Made by a program: the position numbers and the translations under genes | NCBI GenBank assembly: GCA_007922195.1 | Contig: ML682028.1 | Coordinates: forward strand, 18,347,214 to 18,411,213 | DNA length: 64,000 nt | Direction: 5' to 3' | Origin: Podocnemis expansa | Lineage: Eukaryota > Chordata > Testudines > Podocnemididae | Notes under the pieces: model-generated | Told to the model about the DNA's origin: nothing | The model's database searches: none | The model's input: only the letters and a program-made list of their open reading frames with translations | Part shown: positions 5,204 to 33,200 of the stretch, piece by piece | Layout: each line of letters begins with the position of its first letter | Numbering within the stretch: position 1 is the stretch's first letter

Positions 5204-5389
5204 CAGGGGCAGCCAAACTTATGGAACTCAAGAGCCACACAGGTTGACCATTAAACCTTTAAAAGCCGCACTGAAGCATATAGCCATACACTTTTAGCTA
5301 CTAAACTGATTTGCTGATGTTCTTCCGCAAGCCACACGTTTTCATTCAAGAGCCACATGTGGCTCCCGAGCCGTGATTTGGCCACGCCT
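5204..5389 (+). mobile_element. hAT-type MITE, copy B
   Basis: Same family and orientation as the element at 527-713. It begins CAGGGGCAGCCAAACTT and ends TTTGGCCACGCCT. Near-identical 8-bp flanks ACTATATG (5196-5203) and ACTACATG (5390-5397) mark the insertion. Confidence 0.82.
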
Positions 5390-11889: not shown

Positions 11890-12275
11890 TGTACAATAAA
11901 AACACGAGTCCTGTGGCACCACAGAGACAGACTTCTTTGAGCATATGCTTTTGTGGGCTCCAACCCACTTCATCAGACGGATGAAGACATGCAGCCAACA
12001 AAATGGGTTGGGGTCCACAAAAGCTTATGCTGGAAGAAATCTGTTGGTCTACAACAGGCATGGCCAAACTGTGGCGCAGGAGCTGCATGTGGCTTTTGAA
12101 TGAAAAAGTGTGTCTCACAGAGGAACATCAGCAAATTGATGTAGTAGGTAAAAGTATATGGCTATATGCCTCAGTGCGGCTCTTGAAGGTTTAATAATCA
12201 ACTTGTGTGGCTCTTGAGTTCCATAAGTTTGGCCACCCCTGGTCTATAAGGTGCCACAGGAGTCTCATTGTTTTT
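11890..12275. mobile_element. Older head-to-head hammerhead-like pair, split by a hAT MITE
   Basis: The reversed copy (about 11900-11990) reads on the - strand CTGATGA, AGTGGG..CCCAC, AAAA, GCATATGC, then TC. It thus keeps the U and C of the expected cleavage site, but the G of GAAA is mutated. The forward copy (from about 11991) has GCTTATGC then TGG and the CTGTTGGTCTATAAGGTGCCACAGGAGTC tail, interrupted by the MITE at 12055-12241. The sequence differs from the GCTCATGCG subfamily elsewhere, so this pair is probably an older subfamily. Confidence 0.75.
12055..12241 (-). mobile_element. hAT-type MITE, copy C, nested
   Basis: Reverse-oriented member of the family at 527. It is flanked by GTCTACAA (12047-12054) and GTCTATAA (12242-12249). 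Removing it and one flank restores the GTCTATAAGGTGCCACAGG block of the host repeat, so the MITE inserted after that repeat. Confidence 0.88.
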
Positions 12276-12651
12276 ACGGTATTTCTCAGTGCTCCCCACT
12301 ATCTATAAACTCATCTTTCTCAGTGGCCCCTGGTGTTTATAAACCCCTTGCTGAGGGCTCCCCACCAATGTGCTAATTTTTCATAAGCTGTGTGTGCAAA
12401 AAATTTCATGTGCCCCAAAAATTTGTGTGCGCTAATATAAGCATGATTGAATTTTTTGGTGCACACTTGATTTTGTTGCCTGCAGGGTGTCACACCCTGT
12501 GCGCACGCACCCGCGTGCAGCTTAGGGGGAACAGGGCTCCCCAGTATCTACACCCCACGGCGGGGACGCAGTTACAGGTTTTGAGGAACGCGGGCGGGCG
12601 TGGCAGGGAATGGCTGTGGGGTGAACTGGGGGGGGTGGCTTTTGCTGGGGT
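12276..12651. other. Spacer with a probable dispersed-repeat remnant
   Basis: The stretch 12375-12535, with GTGTGCGCTAATATAAGC, CTGCAGGGTGTCACACCC and GCAGCTTAGGGGGAACAGGG, resembles a sauropsid dispersed repeat that I cannot name. GC content rises toward the following array and CpG island. Confidence 0.35.
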
Positions 12652-13290
12652 GGGATGTTTATGGGGGGTGAGCGGGATGCAGTCACGTGGTGGCGCATTT
12701 ATGAGGGGTTAGCCAGGCACTATCACGTGACAGGTATTTATGAGGGAAGGGCCCCCAGGCACAGTCATGTGACAGGTATTTATGAGGGGTTAGCCAGGCG
12801 CTGTCACGTGATGGGTATTTATGAGGGGTTAGCCAGGTGCTGTCATGTGATGGGTATTTATGAGGGAAGGGCACCCAGGCGCCGTCACGTGACAGGTATT
12901 TATGAGGGGTTAGCCAGGCGCTGTCACGTGATGGGTATTTATGAGGGGTTAGCCAGGTGCTGGCACGTGACGGGTATTTATGAGGGAAGGGCACCCAGGT
13001 GCTGTCACGTGACGGGTATTTATGAGGGGTTAGCCAGGTGCTGTCACGTGACGGGTATTTATGAGGGGTTAGCCAGGCGCTGTCACGTGACGGGTATTTA
13101 TGAGGGAAGGGCACCCAGGCGCCGTCACGTGACGGGTATTTATGAGGGGTTAGCCAGGCGCTGTCACGTGACGGGTATTTATGAGGGAAGGGCACCCAGG
13201 CGCTGTCACGTGACAGGTATTTATGAGGGGTTAGCCAGGCGCTGTCACGTGACGGATACTTATGAGGGAAGGGCAGCTGTCACGTAGCGA
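12652..13290. repeat. 39/42-bp E-box (CLEAR-like) minisatellite upstream of MAP1LC3B
   Basis: About 16 tandem units have the form GGTATTTATGAGGG, then either GTTAGCCAGGCGCT (39-bp unit) or AAGGGCACCCAGGCGCC (42-bp unit), then GTCACGTGAC. The 10-bp palindrome is perfect at 12884, 13004, 13043, 13082, 13124, 13163, 13205 and 13244. CACGTG is also kept at 12684, 12724, 12805, 12925 and 12964. CATGTG replaces it at 12766 and 12844, and the last unit reads CACGTAG at 13281. GTCACGTGAC is the CLEAR consensus for TFEB/TFE3/MITF and also fits USF. The array ends about 436 bp before the LC3B ATG. Regulatory function is inferred. Because 39 and 42 are multiples of three, long open frames cross it on both strands; these are not genes. 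Confidence 0.95.
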
Positions 13291-13408
13291 GGCGGATGGC
13301 GGTTGGGCGACGCCAAGTGACGCGAGGGGGGGACACTCTACGCGTTGGGGCTCTGGGGGCGGGTCCATGAGAGGGGCTGGGTGAGCGAGGCGCCCCGCGC
13401 CGCGGATG

Positions 13409-13418
13409 GTCACGTGTG
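13409..13418. promoter_or_regulatory. Promoter E-box (GTCACGTGTG)
   Basis: CACGTG with a 5' GT flank, 120 bp beyond the end of the tandem array and outside its repeat unit. It is a candidate TFEB/USF-type site; binding is not shown. Confidence 0.5.
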
Positions 13419-13509
13419 CGGTGAGCAGCCGACGTCGCCCACCAGGGGGCGTGGCCTATTGGGGCGCGCGCCCGGCGGCGGCGGCCGTTAGTCCCTCCCC
13501 AGCGCGCGC

Positions 13510-13519
13510 GGCACGTGAC
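13510..13519. promoter_or_regulatory. Promoter-proximal E-box (GGCACGTGAC)
   Basis: CACGTGAC matches nine of ten bases of the CLEAR consensus, 170 bp before the start codon and within the CpG island. Of all the sites it is the best placed for a direct promoter effect. Confidence 0.55.
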
Positions 13520-13688
13520 AGCGGCGCGGGTGCCTCCCTCCCCCCCCCCGTTGTGGCGCAGGCGCAGCGGCGCGCGGCCGAGGCTCCGCCCCCTGTGACG
13601 CGCGCGGGCCGGGCGGGCGGTTGGTGGCGGCGGGGTGGCGCCGCAGTCGGGAGCCGCCGCCAGCCGGAGCGGGCCGAGCGCCGCCGCC

Positions 13689-22015
<8,327 letters not shown>

Positions 22016-30215: not shown

Positions 30216-33200
30216 GTGGGTCTGTTATTGGCTGAGGGCTGATTGAGGTAGTGCCACCATTTTCTGATCTGCCACTAAGTTCTAGAAACAACACTCTGAT
30301 TATTCACACTTTTAACACTGCTGGAAAGGTGCTTAATCTCTAAAATAATGAGCGAGTTCTGATGATGCACAGCTCTGTAGAAACAGAAGGAAGACATTCC
30401 TTGTCTTAAAGCAGAATCTAAAATATCACTTGCAGTGCTATAGTCAGGTCAGTCCCAGGGCATGAGAAAGACCAGGTAGTACATTTTATTGGATTGATTC
30501 TGTTGGTGAAAGAGAACCTGAAGACTAGCTTGGCATAAGCTAGAAAGCTTGTCCCTTTCACCCACAGAAGTTGGATCAATAAAGAGATATTTACATTTTA
30601 GCTTGACAAGTCGGGCAAGGTATTACTAGAGCCCTGGATGGGTACAAATACGTAGATCTGTATCCACAATAAATGATCCGCAAATATCCGCATCACTTGT
30701 TCTAGCCTAAAGTCTGCATTTCATTCTGCAAAGTTACACGCATACACTACTTTAAACGCAATACTCCAAGAAAAGAAAAATATGACCTGAATATATTCTT
30801 GGTAAAGTAACATTTCACTGCCAAACGTGCCCTGTCTTGGCCCAAGGATTTTAAATCTCTTTTAGAAATACCTTTACCACAATACTGCAAGATGTATGGA
30901 TGCCAGCAAACCCACATTTTCAGTAACCAAAAGCCAAGCCCTTCAAGAGGATGCACACACTTCATTATAGATGATGTACTCGTGTGCTTTTCTTTTCAGG
31001 TTGTTAATTTGCAAACTTCTAAAATAACCTTCAAAATAAAAGAGATGATGGCTCAGGCCCTTATTCCCAGACAACATATGCGGCCACAACACTCAAATCC
31101 TTTGGAAGGAAATTCTCTTATATGCAGGGAGCCTGCACAAGACTTAGAACAGCACCAAAGGTCTAAAGTTGAGAACATGGGGGTACACACAGGACTCAAC
31201 TTAATCTTCTGTGAATTTAACCCTGAGTGTCTCTCTCTCCTCCCTCTCAAAGATACTGGCTTGCAAAATGTATTTTCTGAAATTAAATGAAAACTTGATA
31301 GAAATAAGATACCATCATTAGACTTCCTTCACTGCCCCCACACTGCTAACTCCCATTCAGATCAATATGTGGCCCCGCACACTGAGCAAGCGAACAGCTC
31401 CATGTGTACGCCGACACCAGTTTCTTACCTTGCCGATTGAAATCCATTGGTGGCTGTTTGCAGTCCTGAGCTCGGTGACCGCTGGCCCCACAGTTGTAAC
31501 AAGAAAGGTTCCCATTTTTCTTGTGGCTTGAACCACTGCCGTTTCCCATCATTCCTTGTGCCTGATACACCCCTGCTGTCCCCGCCATGAAGTTCTGCAT
31601 TGGGGGCACTGTGAACGTGGACTGCCCACTCATTACAGAGTCTGGTGCTAACCCACCATTGTAGGGAGAATGAACCATGGGGAAAGTCGTGCTGTTGTTG
31701 TACTGCTGTGTGTTGATGTAGCCATTACTACAGAGGGGACTGAAGGGTAGGAACGGAAAGGTGAACATTGAGGAACCTGAAAACGGGTGCTGGAAATAGT
31801 TAGCATAACTGATGGTCATTCCACCGGAACCACAGTTCCCACTACACCCACAGGAGCTACACACCATACACCCTGGGGGCTGCTGCTGCTGGTGGTGGTG
31901 GTGGTGATGGTTCTGGTTCTGATTTGGTACAGGGACACTCCCTGCTGATCCGCTGCTGCTGCTGCTATAGAAACTGTTCTCTGCAACAGACGACAGCGTG
32001 GGGCTAGAACTGGGGGGAGGACAGCTGGGCAGATTTGCCACATTTGCAAATGACGTGGCTGGGTGGCTGCCGGAAGAGGCAGTGTTACTGTTCGCACAGA
32101 AGCTGCCTGGCATTGGGGCAACCGGCATGCTGCTCATCGCAGAAAAGGCAACTTTGGTGTTGGCTGTATAGAGAGCAGTCCGGGGATTGATTATTGCAGG
32201 AGACACACTTATTTGCATATTACTGGAGCAGGAAGTTTGTCCGGCCGTGGCAGAATCCGTAGGAATAGAGGACGACACCAGAAGCTTGATAGGTGGACGC
32301 GCCATGTGGAAGACTGCGCTGGATGATACAGTGGCAGCAGCACTCGTTTCTGCTGTTGATGAAGCCTGTTGAGTTGTTTTTATCACTCTGTCCAGAGTTG
32401 AAGCATGGACAACTTTGGTTCGAGGACCAAAGTTAACAGTAGATGAAGTGCCGTTTTCAGGAACTCCTGACAGTAGCTGGAGCGGCTGATGGGGAGATGA
32501 TGTGGGCATCACATCAACTACTGAATTTCCAAAGCTCTTATCCATTTTAATGCTGCTTCTAGGTCCGGCTGAAACTTTATTTCTTTCTTCTAAAGACAAA
32601 AGCGAATGCACAGAAGAGGAAAGAAGTTTCATGTCTGTATTTCGTTCCGACTTGTGCATTGAATTTAGCATTCGAATAGGGCTGAGATGAGTGGAGGCTG
32701 CTGTCAGTATTTGCATTGGCAAGGGATGGTGGCCAGAAGGACTGGAGCCTGTGTCATTCTGCACAGGTAGAACCTGGGCTGTGGGTCTTGCTGAGGCTGA
32801 TGTGAAATGATTGAGTAACATCACTGGCTTCTCCTTGTCTGAACCCTCCAGGTGAATCTCTAAACCTAGAGACAGAAAGATCCATAAATCCCTAGATGGG
32901 GCAGATCAACACAAATATAAGCTTTTCTTGGTTTTCCTTACGTCTCTCATTCTCCTCAGCGCTATCTGAGCTCTCTTCCCTGGTCTGGATCCCCATGGGA
33001 CTGGAAGAGGAACTTGAGTATTCAGAAGAACTACCTTCTCGGGGAAGGGGGTGGGCCGGCTGATCCACATCTACACGTAGCTCTGAGGACAGAATATGCA
33101 TGATAGTTAAAAAATGTGAAAACTATTTGCAAATTGTCACCTGTATGCCAAAAGCCTAGTACAATACTGCGGTTTATGAATGTGTCTCCAGCAGTATCCT

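Follow-up and report, generated by a model that had tools for sequence, protein, structure and literature searches.

The MAP1LC3B locus and its upstream minisatellite

The window, by which we mean the whole 64,000-nucleotide stretch of Podocnemis expansa DNA analysed here, contains MAP1LC3B. Four plus-strand stretches match human LC3B in order, two of them perfectly, and the solved structures that best fit exon 4 are those of LC3B (Table 1). The gene looks intact, and the first-pass annotation was right to call it LC3B. After the conserved glycine, the C terminus encoded in 21839-22015 reads VHSSV, where the human protein reads MKLSV. FBXO31 exon 1 lies on the minus strand about 2.2 kb to the left of the window (L002:7458-7790). 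Might FBXO31 and LC3B share a bidirectional promoter? We rejected this idea: the first exon of FBXO31 is outside the window and about 15 kb from the array described below. Downstream of LC3B, a CCHC zinc-knuckle protein is encoded on the minus strand (31346-32905). From human gene order it is presumably ZCCHC14, in which case the order FBXO31-LC3B-ZCCHC14 would be kept.

Upstream of the LC3B ATG lies a minisatellite, an array in which units of more than about 10 bp are repeated head to tail. Annotated beforehand as about 16 units of 39 or 42 bp, each built around one E-box, it resolves into 15 full units, mostly of those two lengths, and a degenerate 16th site. Split at the E-box and counted to the next start, the units measure 40, 42, 39, 39, 42, 39, 39, 42, 39, 39, 42, 39, 42, 39 and 35 bp. 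They fall into two types, A (39 bp, ending in GGGGTTAGC) and B (42 bp, ending in GGGAAGGGCACC), which follow one another as A B A A B A A B A A B A B A B; unit 1 is divergent and the last unit is shortened. Tandem Repeats Finder (TRF) placed the repeat at 12682-13268 with a period of 39 (14.6 copies, 82% matches), and higher-order periods matched better: 120 (4.9 copies, 91%) and 81 (7.0 copies, 86%). Most aligned unit columns are invariant, E-box columns and others alike.

Other repeats occur in the window. A second minisatellite with a C-rich unit occupies 8-321 (period 51, 6.3 copies). A dispersed repeat at 12053-12249, with copies at 519-715, 5204-5389 and 18557-18650, stops about 425 bp before the array.

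CACGTG is present in 13 of the 15 full units, and 8 of these 13 are GTCACGTGAC; the eight palindromes and thirteen CACGTG counted in the first-pass annotation were exact. Sorted by core, the full units comprise 11 TCACGTGA (8 within GTCACGTGAC), 2 TCATGTGA and 2 CACGTG with one standard flank, and all 15 hold an MiT/TFE-compatible core. GTCACGTGAC is given as CLEAR in PMC6614182 and PMC8773671. By word and neighbourhood the sites are of this kind, since GTCACGTGAC and TCACGTGA lie near an autophagy gene. Their position is another matter: according to PMC11262230, most CLEAR elements are no more than 200 bp from the start site, whereas the CACGTG and CATGTG cores of the array begin 443 to 1005 bp 5' of the ATG at 13689 (the last intact CACGTG at 443 bp), distances here being taken from the ATG and not from the start site. 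The sole CACGTG less than 200 bp from the ATG is a nonarray site, that at 13512 (177 bp); the one at 13411 is 278 bp away.

Table 1. Features of the MAP1LC3B locus, in window positions
Feature	Position	Strand	Remarks
Minisatellite	12674..13287	+	15 full units and a degenerate 16th site
CLEAR 8-mer TCACGTGA, unit 2	12723..12730	+	Further 8-mers without the full 10-mer at 12804 and 12924
M-box TCATGTGA, unit 3	12765..12772	+	E-box CpG changed to TG (core at 12766)
M-box TCATGTGA, unit 5	12843..12850	+	E-box CpG changed to TG (core at 12844)
Stretch with eight GTCACGTGAC (CLEAR 10-mers)	12884..13253	+	Starts at 12884, 13004, 13043, 13082, 13124, 13163, 13205, 13244
Degenerate 16th site CACGTA (GTCACGTAGC)	13281..13286	+	Gene-proximal edge of the array
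CpG island, LC3B first exon	13301..13800		CpG o/e 0.90-1.14 (100-bp bins) vs 0.21 in the 200-kb sample
CACGTG in CpG island (TCACGTGT)	13411..13416	+	278 bp 5' of the ATG
CACGTG in CpG island (GCACGTGA)	13512..13517	+	177 bp 5' of the ATG
MAP1LC3B first coding exon	13689..13728	+	13 residues, then a GTGAG donor
MAP1LC3B exon 2	15446..15501	+	Ends placed by eye from splice sites; match 15445-15504 identical to human protein
MAP1LC3B exon 3	17053..17160	+	Ends approximate; identical to human protein
MAP1LC3B exon 4 and stop codon	21839..22015	+	Start approximate; best solved structures are LC3B

Origin, spacing and decay of the units

Our background sample drew 20 stretches of 10 kb each, at even intervals, from the same contig (200 kb). 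It holds 12 CACGTG and 1 TCACGTGA, and TRF found 3 repeats in it (period of at least 10, at least 3 copies), 0 of the 3 with an E-box. The window has 19 CACGTG against 3.35 expected: 13 in the array, the two at 13411 and 13512 that had been noted in the CpG island and are indeed present, and four elsewhere. All 8 GTCACGTGAC in the window are within the array, and shuffles of the window expect 0.02; copies of a unit amount to one event, however, and shuffling the individual unit is the fairer test of this excess. Dinucleotide shuffles (50,000 draws per type) contained TCACGTGA in 0.06% of cases for A and 0.05% for B, and GTCACGTGAC in 0. This favors a seed site already present in the promoter over the chance creation of an E-box within the unit.

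Could the present flanks have supplied the unit? The alignment of unit 12 to the site at 13512 was matched by only 2 of 200 shuffles, but by 60 of 1000 when the core was held fixed, and we rejected the flanks as a source. The other five unit-versus-flank alignments were equalled in 52 to 144 of 200 shuffles. A coding repeat also seems unlikely. Both strands are open across 12625-13287 (220 aa plus, 198 aa minus), which is unsurprising for 39- and 42-bp units, both lengths being divisible by three. Pfam gave no family for the plus frame of the array and, for the minus frame, three weak families with 0 stretches passing each (DUF7556 just above its cutoff, the other two below theirs). No G-quadruplex (four runs of at least 3 G, loops of 1-7) was found on either strand of 12601-13300.

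It had been proposed that the 39- to 42-bp spacing turns neighboring sites toward a similar face of the helix. This claim failed. The phases of the 15 sites scatter, with resultant lengths R of 0.27, 0.18 and 0.10 at 10.3, 10.5 and 10.55 bp per turn. At 10.5 bp, 42 bp makes four turns and 39 bp makes 3.7, and a helix face is shared only by neighboring sites 42 bp apart, those with a B unit between them.

CpG loss is concentrated in the distal part of the array. Across the 33 aligned columns, 15 of the 22 departures from the majority letter are CpG transitions. Of the 42 CpG sites in units 2 to 15, 15 have been lost; units 2 to 8 account for 12 of these losses, and CpG o/e by 100-bp bin rises from 0.30 at 12701 to 0.83-1.11 at 13001-13300. 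The distal losses suggest germline methylation of the distal units; the pattern as a whole fits a distal half methylated in the germline and a proximal half free of methylation, or else proximal units of more recent origin. CpG methylation hinders bHLH-ZIP binding.

Has selection protected the E-box? Among units 2 to 15, 12 of 14 retain the E-box CpG, 8 of 14 the CpG six bases before it and 7 of 14 the CpG seven bases after it. Comparing 12/14 with 15/28 for the other CpGs gives a one-sided Fisher p of 0.04, with units that are copies and not independent. Counted as runs of identical loss, the E-box has 2 against 3 and 5 at the neighboring CpGs, or 1 against 2 and 3 if copying from any of the three preceding units is allowed. 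Because units copy one another and the loss runs number just 2, 3 and 5, we do not claim selective protection of the E-box CpGs: the event counts give it no support, and the case is not convincing.

Close CLEAR clusters elsewhere in the genome

A whole-array search of the 2.39-Gb genome, in which very frequent words are passed over and the top candidates alone are scored, matched one place, the array's own locus. The array is thus a single-locus minisatellite and not a dispersed satellite, and recurrence at many unrelated loci, which the first-pass annotation named as grounds for refutation, was not seen in this search. We also searched the 2.39 Gb for clusters of exact TCACGTGA, with no mismatch and with gaps of 10-40 bp only. 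Triples occur at five places. The LC3B array, with its 11 copies, accounts for 5 matches that overlap; the four other places have one match each, with three TCACGTGA apiece per 3-kb locus. Pairs gave 44 matches spread over 34 places; the LC3B array contributed 7 of these matches, and none of the 33 other places exceeds three copies at these gaps. Hence, the LC3B array is the largest close TCACGTGA cluster that the search met at gaps of 10-40 bp. Gene naming covered the triple places, the other 29 of the 34 holding pairs only.

The four other triples are GC-rich, with CpG o/e of 0.94-1.25 around the cluster. One adjoins an exon of GAA, which encodes lysosomal alpha-glucosidase (E=1.1e-46), and another is about 0.75 kb from an exon of TPP1 (E=8.3e-14). 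GAA and TPP1 are lysosomal enzymes belonging to the CLEAR network. A third triple occupies a stretch rich in CpG, roughly 5 kb away from an exon that best matches HIGD1A (L023:1501-1586, L034:1244-1468), a gene of the hypoxia-induced HIG1 family and not lysosomal. The fourth, the C87 cluster, is in a CpG-rich and possibly bidirectional promoter; there, by eye, the three TCACGTGA (L029:1501-1620) stand between candidate first exons of opposite direction, MAPSEE on the minus strand and MAAGGLCAR on the plus. With LC3B, GAA and TPP1 among the five triple places, CLEAR-type clustering probably serves as a functional code in this genome, LC3B being its extreme case. The earlier description of the array as a homotypic cluster of CLEAR-type sites gains from its 11 TCACGTGA and from the close triples at GAA and TPP1.

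The cluster near TPP1 includes a small tandem duplication (L031:1489-1547), a 24-bp unit present 2.3 times that carries TCACGTGA. Units with a CLEAR site may thus have been duplicated locally at more than one lysosomal gene. We rejected an extended unit common to the clusters. Shuffles with the core fixed reached the score in 65 (TPP1), 388 (GAA), 27 (HIGD1A), 98 (C87) and 60 (LC3B-proximal) of 1000, and likeness beyond the core is not established.

How specific are these counts to the CLEAR word? The composition-matched palindrome CTACGTAG gave 0 pairs, and is an imperfect control that may be a rarer word (0 in the 200-kb sample). In that sample, 24 composition-matched palindromes with a central CG occur 0 to 3 times each. 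Reversed-word controls were not lower (8 triples against 9, 306 pairs against 44), and the reversed word AGTGCACT is a poor control, being without CpG and occurring 5 times in the sample against 1 for TCACGTGA.

A candidate MiT/TFE array and its alternatives

What might the array do? We give about an even chance to the reading that a single-locus minisatellite expanded round a CLEAR-type E-box and forms an MiT/TFE array that would raise TFEB/TFE3-driven LC3B transcription with repeat number. Unequal exchange or slippage probably expanded the unit around one such E-box. The product would offer some 15 candidate sites for TFEB, TFE3 and MITF, most of them usable by USF, MYC/MAX and other bHLH-ZIP factors too. 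When mTORC1 is low, TFEB and TFE3 would enter the nucleus; many sites could then bring higher local occupancy and coactivator recruitment beside the CpG-island promoter, and LC3B transcription would be induced more strongly, in proportion to repeat number. Binding, activation, dose dependence and variation between individuals are the parts of this scheme that we infer. Several observations count against it: the distance of the cores from the ATG, the CpG losses in the distal units with the methylation they suggest, the unconvincing retention of the E-box CpG, the reversed-word counts, and a triple near the nonlysosomal HIGD1A.

Human data bear on the scheme. ChIP signals at human MAP1LC3B are given for TFEB, TFE3 and MYC (PMC10625625), for MYC (PMC6689058) and for MITF (PMC6355916). 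According to PMC11262230, CLEAR elements typically occur in clusters, and a design with six sites is responsive to TFEB and TFE3; the natural 15-site array should therefore respond to these factors if open. The two CpG-decayed TCATGTGA sites should also remain usable for MiT/TFE, because human MITF binds the M-box with a Kd of 2.6 nM, against 0.9 nM for CLEAR and 1.5 nM for the E-box (PMC6355916). A bolder proposal, which we consider doubtful, is a copy-number-variable TFEB rheostat: an ordinary CLEAR promoter would have become an enhancer of about 15 sites, individuals or species with more units would raise LC3B more steeply or to a greater extent when starved or short of oxygen, and M-box conversion by CpG decay would shift the array from general E-box factors to MiT/TFE.

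A serious rival to the MiT/TFE array, possible though short of probable in our estimate, is that a minisatellite beside a CpG island enclosed a promoter E-box and was carried along neutrally, its copies adding little because LC3B expression is already set by the CpG-island promoter and the pair of proximal sites. CpG decay in the distal units agrees with a neutral passenger, as do event counts without E-box protection and the greater distance of the array from the gene than is usual for CLEAR sites; homogenisation alone accounts for near-identical units, most columns being invariant. However, shuffled units seldom hold TCACGTGA (0.06% for A, 0.05% for B) and never GTCACGTGAC, 15/15 full units are still MiT/TFE compatible, LC3B belongs to the autophagy pathway itself, and two of the four next-largest close clusters are those at GAA and TPP1. 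An assembly artefact or a miscounted array would be very improbable. Tandem arrays are often miscounted in assemblies, but this one is at one locus only, inside a 20.4-Mb contig, and its units show graded divergence and a mixed A/B order and are not exact copies.

It is also conceivable, but rather unlikely, that constitutive factors are the main users, with USF (or MYC/MAX) keeping the promoter open or forming a barrier at the CpG-island edge and MiT/TFE secondary. USF acts as a barrier at an insulator, CACGTG is present in 13/15 full units, and CpG o/e climbs from 0.30 (bin 12701) to 0.83-1.11 (bins 13001-13300) toward the island. PMC6689058 and PMC10625625 place MYC on the human MAP1LC3B promoter in competition with TFEB/TFE3. 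Yet 11/15 sites have both of the flanks that MiT/TFE favor, T and A, both sites that lost their CpG turned into M-boxes, and two further close clusters are at lysosomal genes. We conclude that the interpretation of the array as a cluster of TFEB-type sites is plausible and is strengthened by the genome-wide comparison, with its phasing part rejected. If active, the array would be a natural experiment relating the number of identical CLEAR sites to the strength and threshold of the starvation response, at a gene whose product marks autophagosomes and in a turtle lineage. It would also show that a physiological response element can grow by repeat expansion and leave the gene unharmed.

How does the array compare with known systems? 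Among the matches listed, no title concerned an E-box or CLEAR minisatellite (PMC5703907 concerns TERT), and none was on point for turtle, TFEB and autophagy. Promoter VNTRs whose variation changes how many factor sites are present have been described (PMC3899988, PMC8024321). Like them, the array has a unit that carries a factor site, and repeat number could set site number; it departs from them in its candidate factor class (MiT/TFE bHLH-ZIP), in its roughly 15 sites and in being known from one assembly. With known CLEAR elements it shares the same 8- and 10-bp words, the same gene class and multiple copies, but it differs from the CLEAR clusters elsewhere in this genome in having 11 TCACGTGA in tandem against two or three (gaps of 10-40 bp) and in lying farther upstream. 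The engineered 4XCLEAR and six-site CLEARoptimized reporters (PMC10425213, PMC11262230) also set several CLEAR sites before a promoter. Unlike these constructs, the turtle array is natural, with more candidate sites in 39/42-bp units that bear the marks of CpG decay.
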